Made by a program: the position numbers and the translations under genes
In this document: positions 55,717-62,068 of the stretch, piece after piece
Layout: each line of letters starts with the position of its first letter
Numbering within the stretch: position 1 is the first letter of the stretch
The notes under the pieces: generated by a model
What the model was told of the DNA's origin: nothing
The model's database searches: none
The model's input: only the letters and a program-made list of their open reading frames with translations
Assembly (NCBI GenBank): GCA_937891735.1
Contig: CALAGR010000008.1
Coordinates: 1 to 62,068, forward strand
Length of the DNA stretch: 62,068 nt
Source of the DNA: an uncultured Pseudomonadota bacterium
Lineage (GTDB): Bacteria; Myxococcota_A; UBA796; UBA9615
Direction of reading: 5' to 3'

Positions 55717-57128
55717 CGTTTGATGCTCCCGGAGGTGTCGACGGTGACGCCGATGGTGAAGACGTGGGTCCAGCTCGTGCCGGACGAGGTGGTGTTGGCG
55801 GCGGCGCCCAGGGCGACGGCTTCGTAGCCGCCCCTCAAGCTGAGCCACGGGGTCAGGCGCCCGGACACGGTCAGCGCGGCGCCCCCGAGCTGGCGCTCGG
55901 CGGTGTTCCAGATGGCGGGCTCGTCGAAGCGGATCGGCGCCCAACCCACGCCCCCGCGGCCGGTCAGGGTGATGTCCAGCCGATCCGTGGGGGTCAGCAG
56001 GACGCTGCCCTGCAGCATGGCGCCGACGTCCGTGGTGGCCTCGGTCTCCGGGAACCAGCGGGTGAACTGCACCGCCGCATCCACGCTGAGGAGCGAGAAC
56101 ACCGGCACGCGGATCCCGGCGCCGATGAGCGCCGCTCGCCCATCGTCGAACGTGCTGATCGCCGCCTCGGCCCGCAGGGTGACGCCCACGGTCGCCCAGG
56201 CGCGGCCCCCCAACACAGTCTCGGTGACGTCGCGGCTGCTCCGATCCAGCAGGCCCACCAGGGCCTCGACGCCGTGCCCGGCGTGGGCCACCCCCAGCCG
56301 TCCCCAGAGCTCGCCCTGGGTGCCTGTCACCTTGGTCGCGTCCACCGTGCTCTGGATGGCGAGGAGCCGCCCCGTCAGCTCCAGGGTCACCAGATCCCCC
56401 AGCGACACCCAGCCCTGGAGCACGCCGCCGACGCCCGCGGAGCGCGTGCTGTTGGAGTACGCGTAGCCGGACAGCCAGAAGGCGCCCCCCGTGCGCCAGC
56501 GGGGCGCCGCGGCCTCCACCCCGGGACCCGCGCAGGCCACGTCCGCGTCCTGGGCGAGCAGGGCCGTGAACGCCTGGGAGGCGCGCACCCGGTCCCCCAT
56601 CCCCAGGATCGTCCAGGCCAGACCGCAGGCCGCCGAGGCGTCGCCGGGGTCCAGGCGCAGCGCGGTCCGGTAGGCGGACGCGGCGCCCAGACGGGCCCAG
56701 GTGCCCGTCTGCCAGCGGGTGCTCTGGCGGCGGGACCAGGCCAGCAGGCGCCACGCGTCGCTGGACTCGGGGGCCAGCACGGTGGCCTCCCGGGCCGCCG
56801 CCCGGGCCTGGGTGACGCGGCCCAGCTGAAGCAGCGGCGTGACCTTGCCCATGGCCGTCTCCCAGGAGGCGCCGGACAGGGCCTCGGCCTGGGTCCAACC
56901 CTGCAAGGACTGCTCCCACGCCCCCCAGGTGGCGGCCACCTCGCCCAGCCGGCGGGCTGCGCCGTAGTCCTGCGGGTACGCCTGCAGCTCGGCCAGGGCC
57001 TGGGTGACGGCGGCGGGCAGGGACGCGGGATCGTCCTGGGCCCCGGCCGGGCGGGCGGGCGCGGAGACGGCGCCCATGAGGACGATGACGATGATCCAGG
57101 CGCTGGTGGACCGCTTGTCGTCGGTCAT
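55713..57128 (-). CDS. TPR plus predicted outer-membrane beta-barrel protein
   Basis: A 471-residue protein with a signal peptide (IIVIVLMGAVSAPARPAGA), TPR-like helices (about 35-190; AYRTALRLDPGDASAACGLAW, then MGDRVRASQAFTALL) and a C-terminal region (about 205-471) of alternating beta strands rich in Gly, Thr, Trp and aromatic girdle residues. The organisation resembles YaiO- and PgaA-type outer-membrane proteins. ATG at 57128 overlaps the stop of the urea-transporter/M23 gene. It probably forms the outer-membrane part of the operon's system. Confidence 0.82.
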   Translation of the reverse strand: MTDDKRSTSAWIIVIVLMGAVSAPARPAGAQDDPASLPAAVTQALAELQAYPQDYGAARRLGEVAATWGAWEQSLQGWTQAEALSGASWETAMGKVTPLLQLGRVTQARAAAREATVLAPESSDAWRLLAWSRRQSTRWQTGTWARLGAASAYRTALRLDPGDASAACGLAWTILGMGDRVRASQAFTALLAQDADVACAGPGVEAAAPRWRTGGAFWLSGYAYSNSTRSAGVGGVLQGWVSLGDLVTLELTGRLLAIQSTVDATKVTGTQGELWGRLGVAHAGHGVEALVGLLDRSSRDVTETVLGGRAWATVGVTLRAEAAISTFDDGRAALIGAGIRVPVFSLLSVDAAVQFTRWFPETEATTDVGAMLQGSVLLTPTDRLDITLTGRGGVGWAPIRFDEPAIWNTAERQLGGAALTVSGRLTPWLSLRGGYEAVALGAAANTTSSGTSWTHVFTIGVTVDTSGSIKR

Positions 57129-59314
57129 GGGCCCGACTCCAGCGGGGTGACGGTGAGCTCGCGGTCCCCGATCCTGACCCGCACGCGCTCCAGGCCCACG
57201 CCCAGCCGCAGCTTCGCTTCGGTCCGCACCGCACGTTGCCACGGGCGCTGGGGTTCGCCCACGCCGGTGATCAGCAAGTGCCCACCGCGCTTCTCGGAGC
57301 GGTACTCCACCGGCTGGTCCGCCGGCGGCAGCACGGCCGCGAGCGCATCACGCACCCACGCCAGGGGGTTGCTGGCGAGGCGTCGCGGGTTGAGGTGGTC
57401 GGTCCAGCGCAGGGCGCCGGGCTCCGTCAGGGGCACCTTGGCCAGGGCCACGTACATGGCGAACAGGGCTCCGTCCCGGGGACCGACGTGGTCGAACGCC
57501 ACGAAGCTCTCGCCGCTCGCCGCGAACCACAGGCGCGCGTCCTGATCGGGGGACCAGAGCGAGCGGGCGCCGAGCAGATCGATGTCGCTGATGATCTCCT
57601 CCTCGTGGGTCCGCCCGTCGCACTCCACCCGCACCCGCACCCGGCCGCCGGGGGGCAGGTCGAGGAGCGAGGCCACCTCGGGCTTGCGCACCAGGTTGTG
57701 CAGGCGGTCGCCCTGCTCGGGCACGCGGCAGCTCTGGAGCAGCGGGCCCTGCTCGGTGCTGACCACGACGTCGTGGAACTCGATGGGGATCGTGGGATCG
57801 CCGACCGTCGGCGTGGCCTGCAGCTGCACGTGAAGGTGCGGCACCGGTGAGCGCCCGGAGCTGCCGACCTTGCCGATGGGCTGGCCCGCGGCGACCACCT
57901 GGCCCTGCACCACCTCCATGGCCCCCGGCGACAGGTGAGCGAGCAGCGAGAAGATCCCCAGCCCGTGCTGGATGACGACGACGTTGCCCCAGTTGGAGGT
58001 CTCGTCGATCGTGCCCACGGGCATGTCGGGGAGGCCATCGACGATCTTGACGACCGTGCCGGCGCCGGGCGCCAGGACCGGCAGGCGGTAGCAGAGCCAG
58101 TCGGTCAGGGCCTGTCCGGTGTTGCGGTGCCGCTCCCCGAGCCGGTCCGCCACCTCGAAGTCCAGGCCGTGGCGCCACGCCCCTTTGTGGGTGTGCTCGC
58201 CGTCGTGGCCCTGGGTCACCACCCAGGTTCCCCGCACGGGCAGGCGCAGCCGGATCGGCAGGCCCGTGCGGAACCGCAGCACGCGGGTGCGGTAGTGGTT
58301 GAGGTTGTCCTCGGGGGAGCCGGCGAGGAAGTCCACCTTGCGGGGCTGGGCTTCCAGCGTGCGCTGGCCCAGGGCGTACAGGATGAGGAGCACGGTGGCG
58401 TTGAAGGGCAGGGCCAGGACGGGCAGGCCCACGGGCTGCAGCAGGTTGATGAGGCCCACGCTGACGAGGCCGCAGGCGAGGGACCCGGTGGCCGCCAGGG
58501 CCATCGATGCGGGACCGGGTACGTAGTAGATCCCGCCCAGCGCCACCGCGGTCATGATGAAGTTGAAGCCGATGTACTGGTGCACGAAGTCGGCGGGGAA
58601 CGAGAAGAGGTACTGGTCGGCGAACACGGCCACCGCGAACCCCACCAGGGCGTGCACCACCGCGATCCGCGACCACAGCAGCAGGGCCAGCAGCACCAGC
58701 GCTCCGGCGGTCCAGTGGGGCTGGAAGAAGATGGCCCCCAGGCTGCGCAGGAAGGTGTCGAGCAGCGCCGGGCCGGGCAGGGCGGCCATCGCCAGGGCCG
58801 GGGCCTTGGGGACCATCGCCATGCCGCGGATGTAGGGCACCGCGAGCAGGGCCAGCCAGCCCACGATCACGAAGGGCAGCGACAGGACGGGCAGGCGGAA
58901 GTGGTAGCCCATCGCCCCGGACAGGGCCACGTGCACCAGGACCACGGCGAGGGCGAGCACCGCGGACAGGCCCCAGAAGGCGGGGGAGCGGTCGAGCAGG
59001 GCGCCCACCAGCAGGAACACCAGCAGGGCGTTGTAGCCGAGCACGCCGGTGCGCACCGACTCCTTGTCCAGCCCCAGGGCGAGGGCCAGACCCGAGGCCA
59101 GCACGACGCCGAGCAGGCCGATGGCGCCCACCTCGGGCACGACGAAGGTGGCGGCCATCACGAGGGCTCCCACCGCCGGGCGGCGGGCGAACAGGACCTG
59201 GGAGTAGCTGGCCAGGACGGTCTCGACGCCCCGTCGCAGCCGGCTGGGGGGCCGACTGGACGGGGTGGTGTCGAACACCGCGGCAGCCTCGGACGCGGGG
59301 ACGAAGCCGATCAT
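57125..59314 (-). CDS. Urea-transporter-like membrane domain fused to M23/LytM peptidase domain
   Basis: A 729-residue fusion. Residues 30-315 have about ten hydrophobic helices in two halves and match the urea transporter (UT) family (ASYSQVLFARRPAVGALVMA, ALGLDKESVRTGVLGYNALL). Residues about 345-500 are an M23/LytM domain: HKGAWRHGLDF with likely zinc ligands His376 and Asp385, NWGNVVVIQHG, LLAHLSPG, and PHLHVQ with His493 and His495. About 230 further residues are beta-rich. All M23 ligands appear intact, so endopeptidase activity on peptidoglycan is plausible. It starts 5 bp after the decarboxylase stop and overlaps the barrel gene (ATGA). It may let a channel sense or remodel the wall. 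Confidence 0.9.
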   Translation of the reverse strand: MIGFVPASEAAAVFDTTPSSRPPSRLRRGVETVLASYSQVLFARRPAVGALVMAATFVVPEVGAIGLLGVVLASGLALALGLDKESVRTGVLGYNALLVFLLVGALLDRSPAFWGLSAVLALAVVLVHVALSGAMGYHFRLPVLSLPFVIVGWLALLAVPYIRGMAMVPKAPALAMAALPGPALLDTFLRSLGAIFFQPHWTAGALVLLALLLWSRIAVVHALVGFAVAVFADQYLFSFPADFVHQYIGFNFIMTAVALGGIYYVPGPASMALAATGSLACGLVSVGLINLLQPVGLPVLALPFNATVLLILYALGQRTLEAQPRKVDFLAGSPEDNLNHYRTRVLRFRTGLPIRLRLPVRGTWVVTQGHDGEHTHKGAWRHGLDFEVADRLGERHRNTGQALTDWLCYRLPVLAPGAGTVVKIVDGLPDMPVGTIDETSNWGNVVVIQHGLGIFSLLAHLSPGAMEVVQGQVVAAGQPIGKVGSSGRSPVPHLHVQLQATPTVGDPTIPIEFHDVVVSTEQGPLLQSCRVPEQGDRLHNLVRKPEVASLLDLPPGGRVRVRVECDGRTHEEEIISDIDLLGARSLWSPDQDARLWFAASGESFVAFDHVGPRDGALFAMYVALAKVPLTEPGALRWTDHLNPRRLASNPLAWVRDALAAVLPPADQPVEYRSEKRGGHLLITGVGEPQRPWQRAVRTEAKLRLGVGLERVRVRIGDRELTVTPLESGP

Positions 59315-59319
59315 GGGAG

Positions 59320-60690
59320 CTACTCGAGCCACGCAGGGACGGATTCTCCCATCACCAGGTCCTCGAGGGTCTCGGTGCGCCGGATCTCGGCCACCTCTCC
59401 GGCGGGGCTGATGAGGACGACGGCGGGGCGGAGCTGGATGAACTGCATGGACTGCGTGACGTTGTAGGCGCCGACGGGGCTGACGAGCACCCGGCTCCCG
59501 ACCTCCAGCGGGGGCAGCATCATGTTCTCGCAGACCACGTCGATGTTCATGCACAGCGGGCCGTACAGGACGGTCGGCTCGGGCACGCCCCGGGGCTCGG
59601 TGCAGGGCGTGATGTCGTGCCGGTACCAGAAGGACGTGAAGAGCACGTTGACCCCGGCGTCCAGGACCGTCGCGCGCCGTCCGTCGGGCAGGCGCTTGTT
59701 GGCGAACACGGTGCTGATCATCGTGCCCGCGTCATCCACCAGGGCGCGGCCGGTCTCCAGGATCAGCAGCGGCGTCTCGTCGTGGGGCAGGTCCAGGGCG
59801 GACAGCCCGTCGGTGATCGCCTCGGCGTACTGGTCGAAGCTGGGGCTGACCTGCTCGCCGGGCAGGTACTGGCTGTGCAGCCGGGCCTTGCTGGCGAAGC
59901 CGCCGCCGAGATCGATGTACTCCACCGTGATGCCCAGCTCCTTGCGCAGCCGGTTGGCGAACCCGGCGACCTTGCCCGCGGCGATCTTGTAGGAGCCGGA
60001 GTCCAGCACGAAGGTGCCGACGTGGCTGTGCAGGCCCGCCAGCTGCAGGCGGCCGCCCCCGACCAGGCGGCGCACGGCGTCCCAGGCCTGGCCCGTCTCC
60101 AGGGCGAAGCCGAAGCGGCCCCAGACGGGCACCCCGGCGCCGACGGACATGTTCAGGCGGATCCCCACCTTCGGCTTCATGTCGAGCTCGGCGGCCACCT
60201 GCTCGCACAGGGCGAGCTCGTCGAAGTGGTCGATGTTGACGATGGAGCCGCCGGCGAAGGCCTCGCGCAGCTCGTCGGCGGTCTTGCGGGGGCCGTTGAA
60301 GACGATCTGCGCGGCGGGGATCCCGTTGCGACGGGCCTTGCGGAACTCCATGCCCGAGACCACCTCGGCCCACGCGCCCTCGGCGTGGAAGACCTTGCAG
60401 ACGGCATCGAGGTAGCAGGTCTTGTACGACCAGGCGAGCTGCACCCTCGGCCAGCGGCGGGACAGGGCGTCGTGCAGCTGCCGGTAGCGATCCTCCATGG
60501 TGCGCTGGCTGTAGACAAACAAGGGGGAGCCGTGGGCTTCGACCAGCTCCTCGACGGGCACACCATCAATGGAGTCCTTCGGTTGGTACGCGGCGCTGGC
60601 GCTCATCTTGTTCATGAAGCCCGCCCGGTGGCGGCTGATGCTGGGGCGCTCGTAGCGCTGCTTGAGCTTGGTGGTCGGGTTCTGGGACAC
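59320..60690 (-). CDS. Fold-type-III PLP decarboxylase (DAPDC/ODC-like)
   Basis: A 456-residue enzyme of the alanine-racemase-like fold. Lys90 in WSYKTC is the PLP lysine. LHSHVGTFV, YIDLGGGF, LETGRALVDDAG and Cys380 in GPLCMNID match the diaminopimelate/ornithine/arginine decarboxylase group. Which amino acid it uses cannot be told. The first 30 residues are an extra basic tail. It starts at GTG with GGGAG upstream, and is first in the operon. If it made agmatine, a later step could yield urea, which would fit the urea-transporter domain, but no agmatinase is in the window. Confidence 0.9.
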   Translation of the reverse strand: MSQNPTTKLKQRYERPSISRHRAGFMNKMSASAAYQPKDSIDGVPVEELVEAHGSPLFVYSQRTMEDRYRQLHDALSRRWPRVQLAWSYKTCYLDAVCKVFHAEGAWAEVVSGMEFRKARRNGIPAAQIVFNGPRKTADELREAFAGGSIVNIDHFDELALCEQVAAELDMKPKVGIRLNMSVGAGVPVWGRFGFALETGQAWDAVRRLVGGGRLQLAGLHSHVGTFVLDSGSYKIAAGKVAGFANRLRKELGITVEYIDLGGGFASKARLHSQYLPGEQVSPSFDQYAEAITDGLSALDLPHDETPLLILETGRALVDDAGTMISTVFANKRLPDGRRATVLDAGVNVLFTSFWYRHDITPCTEPRGVPEPTVLYGPLCMNIDVVCENMMLPPLEVGSRVLVSPVGAYNVTQSMQFIQLRPAVVLISPAGEVAEIRRTETLEDLVMGESVPAWLE

Positions 60691-60811: not shown

Positions 60812-60827
60812 GGGGGGGCGGGGGCCC

Positions 60828-60985
60828 GATCCGCGAACCAGCCGGGGGTGGGTGCCGGGCCTCTCCCCCGCCGGTTCGCCGCTGGGACCGACGACCGGCC
60901 AAAGCCGCCCCTGGAGGGGCCAAAGTCACCCCTGCCGGCGAACGAGGTCGGGGCAGGTGCCGCATGCCCATCCACCTGGTTCGTC
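60828..60985. repeat. 158-bp direct repeat, copy A
   Basis: It runs from GATCCGCGAACC to ACCTGGTTCGTC and is matched without gaps by copy B at 61766-61923, about 88% identical by eye. Inside is an imperfect stem (CGCGAACCAGCCGGGGG pairing with CCCCCGCCGGTTCGC) and two tandem GGCCAAAG units. The copies frame the CBS gene. No coding potential is evident. Confidence 0.85.
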
Positions 60986-61173
60986 ACGGGCCCACCCCTC
61001 CCGGCGAGCGCCGGAGTGGCACGACCCCTGCACAACCCCATGGGGCGTTCCCTGAGTGAGGTCAGGGGGGCCCACACGCGGGCAGATGCCCTCGGATGGC
61101 GTGCAATCTCGCTCGGTTTCCCGCGGAGCGGAGCCAGCGCCCGGGAAGACCGGGTCCACAGGAGGAGAACGAC

Positions 61174-61656
61174 ATGGGGACAGTAAAGAGAATCCTGGCC
61201 CGAAAGGCCCAGAGGGCGGTCCTGACCACGACGCCACACACCCTGGTCTACGACGCCATCGCGGTGATCGCCGAGCATGGCGTGGGGGCCCTGGTGGTGA
61301 CCGAAGAGGACGAGGTGGTGGGCATCGTGACCGAGCGCGACTACCTGCGAGAGGTCGTCCTGAAGGACCGCTCCAGTCGAGCCACCCCCGTGGAGACGAT
61401 CATGTCCAGGCCCGTCGTCACCGTGGATCCCAACGAGACGATCGACCGCTGCATGGAGCTGATGACCAGCCACCGGTTCCGCCACCTCCCGGTCCTGGAG
61501 GACGGCGAGCTGGTGGGCGTGATCTCCATCGGCGACTGCGTCAAGCAGCAGGTGCGGGAGCACACGGCGGAGATCCACTTCCTGCACGACTACATCAACG
61601 GCGGTCCGACCGTGGTCCGGGAGAGGGCGGCCGAGCGGGCCAGCCAGCGGGGCTGA
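61174..61656 (+). CDS. CBS-domain pair protein
   Basis: A 160-residue cytoplasmic protein made of two CBS domains: VYDAIAVIAEHGVGALVVTE...VGIVTERDY and IDRCMELMTSHRFRHLPVLED...VGVISIGD. A strong AGGAGG lies 8 bp before the ATG. CBS pairs bind adenine nucleotides and tell a partner about energy state; here no partner domain is attached. A short Arg-rich C-terminus is present. The gene stands alone between two 158-bp repeats. Confidence 0.92.
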   Translation: MGTVKRILARKAQRAVLTTTPHTLVYDAIAVIAEHGVGALVVTEEDEVVGIVTERDYLREVVLKDRSSRATPVETIMSRPVVTVDPNETIDRCMELMTSHRFRHLPVLEDGELVGVISIGDCVKQQVREHTAEIHFLHDYINGGPTVVRERAAERASQRG

Positions 61657-61694
61657 GGGCGGACCGGGTGCGGTGACCGCGCCGGGGCGAGGCA

Positions 61695-61763
61695 GCCCCG
61701 AGCGGGGCGAACCAGCGGGGGGGACCTGCGGCATCTCCCCCCCGCTGGTTCGCCTCTCGGGGC
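61695..61763. repeat. Long hairpin after the CBS gene
   Basis: GCCCCGAGCGGGGCGAACCA at 61695 continues to 61724 and pairs with 61736-61763, with one small indel and an 11-bp loop. The stem is close to 28 bp. Its core, GCGAACCAGCGGGGG, also occurs in both orientations within the 158-bp repeats, so these elements share ancestry. It may end CBS transcription, but there is no T-run. Confidence 0.8.
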
Positions 61764-61765
61764 GC

Positions 61766-61923
61766 GATCCGCGAACCAGCCGGGGGTGGGTGCCGGACCT
61801 GTCCCCCGCTGGTTCGCCGCTGGGTCCGACATGCGGCCAAAGCCACCCGTGGAGGCGCCAAAGCCACCCCTGGCGGCGAACGAAGTCGAGGCAGGTGCCG
61901 CAGGTCTACCCACCTGGTTCGTC
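61766..61923. repeat. 158-bp direct repeat, copy B
   Basis: Gap-free partner of copy A, 938 bp downstream in the same orientation, with about 18 differences spread along its length. It holds the better preserved stem: GCGAACCAGC (61771-61780) and GCTGGTTCGC (61808-61817) are exact reverse complements. Confidence 0.85.
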
Positions 61924-62044
61924 GGGGGCCGACCGCGCGCCACTCCAGGCCGCCTGCGCCAGGCGTCCCGGCGCCCGCTGCGCCATGCTCACGCGGACTG
62001 ACGGGACCGCGATCCCTACACTCCGGGGCCTGCCTGGAGATCCC

Positions 62045-62068
62045 ATGAGCGACCCCTGCGCCCTGTGC
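62045..62068 (+). CDS. Start of a gene cut by the window edge
   Basis: ATG at 62045 preceded by CTGGAGATCCC; eight codons are visible (MSDPCALC) before the window ends. The spacing and short leader look like a true start, but with so little sequence nothing can be said on function. Confidence 0.35.

Follow-up and report, generated by a model that had tools for sequence, protein, structure and literature searches.

The two direct repeats, A and B, that frame a CBS-domain gene near the right-hand end of the window (the whole 62,068-nucleotide stretch of DNA analysed here, contig C8 of genome G000) are probably two members of a lineage-restricted mosaic family of palindromic repeats, which would have spread within this genome and come to lie at a junction where a gene pair is split. 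A genome-wide repeat family had been among the proposals of an initial annotation of this region, and the copy count in the genome itself upheld it, with 16 places on 15 contigs.

Hairpin units of copies A and B and their spacing

Copy A (about 60821..60998, + strand) and copy B (61759..61934, + strand) were each delimited by a repeat search and a genome DNA search. In the repeat search of the window, in which A covers 60821-60996, they form an ungapped direct-repeat pair of 176 nt, 88% identical, with a spacing of 938. The orientation and identity given in the initial annotation were thus confirmed, and its repeat length of 158 bp proved slightly short. Its description of both copies as non-coding also stands. 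Since 45, 63, 84 and 105, the unit length and the distances between units, are all multiples of 3, a protein origin was considered; it was rejected because there are stops in several frames and substitutions show no clear codon-position pattern, third positions included (differences of 95/67/107 by codon position over six other, ungapped copies).

Copy A consists of hairpin unit H1 (60834..60878, +, 45 nt, 54.7 bits with the hairpin model), a linker holding a tandem pair of 21-nt units of the GGCCAAAG.. type (60896..60937, +, borders approximate, placed from the sequence and from an H1-H2 spacing of 105 vs 84) and hairpin unit H2 (60939..60983, +, 45 nt, 61.6 bits). Copy B carries H1 at 61772..61816 and H2 at 61877..61921 (both +, 59.7 bits each). 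At its left lies a 69-nt hairpin (61695..61763, +), the core of which, 61708-61752, is a third unit, H0, inverted, with loop CCTGCGGCATC and a score of 68.0 bits on the - strand; together with H0, element B spans 61693-61935. A and B are unequal in that H0 is missing from A. The 69-nt hairpin noted initially is real, with a minimum free energy (MFE) of -63.4 kcal/mol (z -8.6) that none of 200 shuffles equalled, and the stem sequence said to be common to A, B and this hairpin is indeed so, all three belonging to one dispersed family. The sequence GCGAACCAGC, allowing at most one mismatch, occurs 19 times in the window vs 8.3 expected, a number reached in 0 of 100 shuffles, and 6 of the 19 occurrences fall within the A, B and hairpin repeats.

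Between A and B lies the gene for a protein with two CBS domains (61174..61656, +; Pfam PF00571, E 1.4e-27). The gene itself is ordinary: its relatives on G000:C119 and G001:C82 are 70% and 58% identical, with no such repeat near either, and no second copy of the A-CBS-B block was found. It is less alone than first described, as a yjdM gene, cut by the contig end, begins at 62045 just past B.

The unit of the family is palindromic, 45 nt long, and fits CGAAC-N35-GTTCG with at most one or two differing bases; it has 17-nt arms and a conserved 11-nt loop. All 31 aligned units share this length, with zero gaps. The loops of H1 and H2 are GGTGCCGCA-like and that of H0 reads the opposite way, so that H0 is an inverted unit. 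An element contains up to three units in the order inverted H0, H1, H2, joined by linkers of 18 + 21n nt. Of the 17 distances measured from start to start, 16 are exact multiples of 21 (63, 84 or 105) and one is 64. These distances are 105 in A, 64 and 105 in B, 63 and 84 in C167, C21, C396 and C327, 84 in C526 and C33, and 84 and 63 in the diverged pair C171 and C64, where the two linker lengths come in reverse order (84 then 63). A and B have each gained exactly one 21-nt unit, the linker unit being doubled in both and single in other main-type copies. As evidence the 21-nt step is of modest strength, since it amounts to only about three independent length changes.

Copies differ further in their composition, and several have undergone losses. 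C305 is without H0 and H1, C526 has an H0/H1 hybrid, and C106, C147, C138 and C305 share an identical 45-nt H2 within differing flanks, which points to recent spread or conversion and was counted in favour of the family explanation given above. In a subset of copies, outer arms extend the element to about 330 nt: ACGGCAGCCCCCC.. in L006, L007 and L009, and also ..GGGGGCCGT in L007 and L009, roughly inverted repeats, with an inner enclosing pair, GTCGCCAGCGCCC / GGGCGCTGGCGG. Homology extends past the outer arms in L004, L007 and L008, copy ends are ragged, and inspection of the copies by eye found no target-site duplication. Outside the hairpin element, short repeats are common to L004:1972-2165, L008:1890-2000 and L029:1133-1221.

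Distribution of the family and its neighbouring genes

Genome G000 (7.87 Mb, 542 contigs, estimated contamination 5.66%) was searched with copy A, a longer copy, a hairpin model derived from 31 units, and the diverged C64 copy. Besides A and B on C8, members lie on C167, C21, C396, C327, C526, C33, C305, C430, C138, C147, C106, C225, C171 and C64, and C355 carries an additional half hairpin. Scoring of the best 150 of 17,088 candidates with the hairpin model gave at least 33 units (32 full, 1 partial at the end of C225); 31 of these had built the model, which therefore added only those of C106 and C225. Inspection by eye discerned no 45-nt unit on C285 and showed the weak matches on C173 and C509 to be another hairpin, of 38 nt; all were rejected. 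The 38-nt hairpin is identical at G000:C173:4535-4572 (L176) and C509:3770-3807 (L177), with shared flanks, and is probably another duplicated element. A 386-aa tyrosine recombinase is encoded at G000:C396:8456-9259 (L181, L182), about 21 kb from the repeat on the same contig; two pieces of it reach 103 and 94 bits with the integron integrase model (cut-off 265).

Beyond this genome the family was absent or nearly so in 70 further members of the class, in 84,980 species, and in phages and plasmids. With the hairpin model, 3 of 71 class genomes match, namely G000 itself and, by weak single matches, G027 and G030. The G030 match is by eye a different palindrome, and that in G027, a genome from a distant family, is a 41-nt hairpin with loop GACGCCGCATC (G027:C85:179-219, L179) that could be a distant unit of the repeat. 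A DNA search of 57 relatives gave short matches in G018 and G040 only, and the diverged C64 copy gave weak matches in G003, G006 and G008; none of these were taken as members. Zero matches were obtained in an exact-pattern scan of the 84,980 species and viral contigs, a collection that may not include this genome or very near ones; the pattern fits 13 of the 31 known units, so diverged relatives could escape it. Distant DNA searches with copy B gave no matches in plasmids and phages, and a non-exhaustive literature search found no paper on this hairpin repeat.

The proteins encoded beside the copies are unrelated to one another (histidine kinase, FG-GAP, M23, MMPL, AhpC, YjdM, MopE, methyltransferase and others). 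At the 12 places where both neighbours were called, 7 gene pairs are convergent, 3 co-directional and 2 divergent, and of the 24 gene ends that face a copy, 17 are 3' (one-sided binomial 0.03). Neighbours were identified by eye on the left at L008 and L009 and on the right at L015; L016, with its ambiguous right-hand neighbour, and the contig-end copies C106, C147 and C225 were excluded from the count. The resulting bias towards 3' ends is weak, and it rests in part on the by-eye genes at L008 and L009. No mobilising enzyme was found: there is no transposase among the 20 flanking proteins scanned, and PF01797, the Y1 transposase family, has 0 matches in G000 (the controls give matches in 5 of 14).

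A split gene pair and the contig end

To the left of copy A lies a gene for an Orn/DAP/Arg-type decarboxylase (59320..60690, -). In 68 of 72 related loci (L084-L155), from several phyla, the decarboxylase has an ATP-grasp gene upstream; in the remaining four (L123, L133, L153, L154) the decarboxylase match starts within 138 nt of the locus start. In G000 the ATP-grasp gene (73% identity) is on C355, away from the decarboxylase on C8, and A, CBS and B occupy the site where the pair is split. No CBS or yjdM gene was found in the stretches of DNA covered for the 72 related loci. Among named relatives, the one nearest to the decarboxylase (83%) comes from a Deltaproteobacteria MAG, JAGSHC010000385, with the ATP-grasp gene directly before it; the product of this ATP-grasp gene is 100% identical to a protein of G001, of the same genus, and the MAG and G001 are therefore probably the same organism. 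On C355, the ATP-grasp gene is followed about 33 nt later by a convergent gene, which lies beside an ECF sigma factor and is labelled "anti-sigma" by position, with no Pfam match. Also in the window, a single ORF at 57128-59554 (-) contains a fusion of two domains, urea transporter (PF03253) and M23 peptidase (PF01551).

Two other copies adjoin apparent breakpoints. The C430 repeat adjoins a 53-nt tail that matches the end of a gene on C355 exactly, and the tail was found at these two places only in the genome. The C396 repeat is followed by a truncated protease, a subtilase fragment whose profile match begins at position 130 of 288. Three places in all tie the repeats to rearrangement; the connection is suggestive but unproven.

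The final 55 nt of the contig (62014..62068, +), which hold the yjdM start, are identical to G000:C355:19626-19680, and the last 55 nt of C430 are identical to C355:19429-19483. As both identical runs are exactly 55 nt, they have the look of a k-mer overlap left by the assembler where a yjdM gene is duplicated; the C430 and C355 yjdM genes are 93.7% identical over 350 nt. Two links past the contig end may then be proposed, one or the other of which would hold. If the window joins C430, the order would be decarboxylase, A, CBS, B, yjdM, repeat R430, 53-nt gene tail and PhyH. If it joins C355, then A, CBS, B, yjdM, VWA, a small ORF, sigma and the next gene would form one block, about 4.8 kb in size, lying between decarboxylase and ATP-grasp, which would be evolutionarily simpler yet runs against the assembler's own path.

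Origin of the family and comparison with known repeats

The explanation that we consider probable, a lineage-restricted palindromic family, would run as follows. The family may have spread as non-autonomous DNA by means of a putative enzyme and then decayed by internal deletions between hairpins. The 21-nt step would correspond to two helical turns, keeping units on one face of the DNA, and such phasing would fit a protein-bound or synapsed DNA element more than an RNA. Hairpins at gene ends may incidentally serve as two-way transcription-end or mRNA-end structures. The A, CBS, B, yjdM block would have been inserted, or recombined via the repeats, between the decarboxylase and its former ATP-grasp partner, and the CBS gene would lie between A and B as a result. 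Capture of the gene by a non-autonomous element, as envisaged initially, may accord with a block that interrupts a gene pair, less so with the inequality of A and B or with the failure to find a second A-CBS-B. If true, this explanation describes a mosaic repeat of palindromes that emerged within a single deltaproteobacterial lineage, without the transposase responsible for driving REPs; length changes respecting the 21-nt step would provide a clean test of a helical-phasing constraint; and a repeat family would be linked to the breakage of a gene pair otherwise kept across several phyla. A bolder version, which we regard as decidedly unlikely, is a phase-locked DNA landing site, where three palindromes, set on the same helix face at exact multiples of two turns, would be bound by a nucleoid or recombination protein, and synapsis of distant copies would drive duplications and operon breaks. 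It would represent a novel type of repeat that organises chromosomes or moves genes.

It is unlikely that the family is instead a MITE, mobilised by the enzyme of a DDE-type transposon of which it would be a short relative, with A and B as two insertions and CBS as a bystander. Like MITEs, the copies are short, non-coding and dispersed, and the outer arms and inner pair of the longer copies recall inverted repeats; but these arms are imperfect, A and B lack them, homology runs past them, ends are ragged, and neither a target duplication (by eye) nor an autonomous partner in the flanks examined was found. A composite transposon was rejected, as A is without H0 and no transposase was found nearby. 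An integron-like or other site-specific recombination array is improbable. Joining of the contig end to C430, which the 55-nt overlaps allow, would make A, B and the C430 repeat co-oriented, with CBS and yjdM between them and a hairpin site after each gene (A-CBS-B-yjdM-R430); the alternative joining is equally possible, however, and most copies are single, between large unrelated genes. Integron attC cores read RYYYAAC/GTTRRRY, motifs present in 0 of 22 units, and no integron integrase (IntI) exceeds the cut-off (best 103 vs 265 bits).

RNA elements had also been suggested initially, and a structured RNA gene or cis-regulatory RNA family now has little probability. H0 and the H1 of B (z -4.5) fold strongly and the H0 loop is complementary to the H1/H2 loops over about 7 nt, whereas the H2 of B folds no better than shuffled sequence (z 0.06). 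Pair counting on the unit alignment gave 74.6% of cells paired. Covariation is not clearly above shuffles (0.133 vs 0.116, reached by 37 of 500), and 6 double-change pairs were observed, fewer than the 7.4 in shuffles. No Rfam family exceeds its gathering score, the matches being weak, microRNA-type and far below it (best 27.9 bits vs 62), and the neighbours are unrelated. With no clear excess of covariation and an unremarkable fold of B H2, the palindrome appears to be conserved mainly as sequence, and this, together with the 21-nt step, would favour a role as DNA. A purely local duplication around the CBS gene, finally, is highly improbable: the family occurs at fourteen additional places in the genome, which excludes such a duplication for the family as a whole. 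It may hold for the A/B pair, as A and B are more alike (88%) than either is to other copies (76-85%) and both have the 21-nt unit in duplicate.

Among known repeats, the BOX, RU and ERIC types of enterobacteria and pneumococci are modular intergenic elements of 100-300 nt that change in internal unit number. The family described here is likewise modular, intergenic and variable in unit number, but differs, by description, in its three separate hairpins at a fixed step. BIMEs, as described in PMC2817692 and PMC1525189, are intergenic and dispersed, combine REP palindromes of either orientation with linkers, and are frequent between convergent genes. The units here similarly occur in both orientations (H0 inverted vs H1 and H2), with linkers, at 16 places, but they are 45 nt long, with 17-nt arms, an 11-nt loop and a fixed 21-nt step. 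REPs are described as frequent between convergent genes in PMC1525189 and PMC3733652. They usually exceed 100 copies per genome, compared with 16 places and at least 33 units here; they are defined as 20-40 (or 21-65) nt with a GTAG or CGTC tag, which does not describe these 45-nt units; and no REP head, GT(A/G)G or GTAG, was seen in them. A RAYT-driven REP was rejected, as G000 is without the Y1 (IS200/IS605-like) transposase. The CGTC-tagged REPs are, according to PMC3733652, palindromes without a dedicated transposase, in some cases species-specific and near gene 3' ends; their stems measure 8-9 bp, their loops 4-5 nt, and they have a CCA-like tail. In the present family GTTCGTC is seen in main-type H2 and at the outer end of some H0, but terminal CGTC is missing in H1 and the arms are 17 nt. 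Without the GTAG/CGTC tag, short stem, high copy number and Y1 transposase, the family is not filed as a REP; by analogy, its behaviour would most resemble that of BIME/REP mosaics, as selfish or structural palindromes near gene 3' ends.
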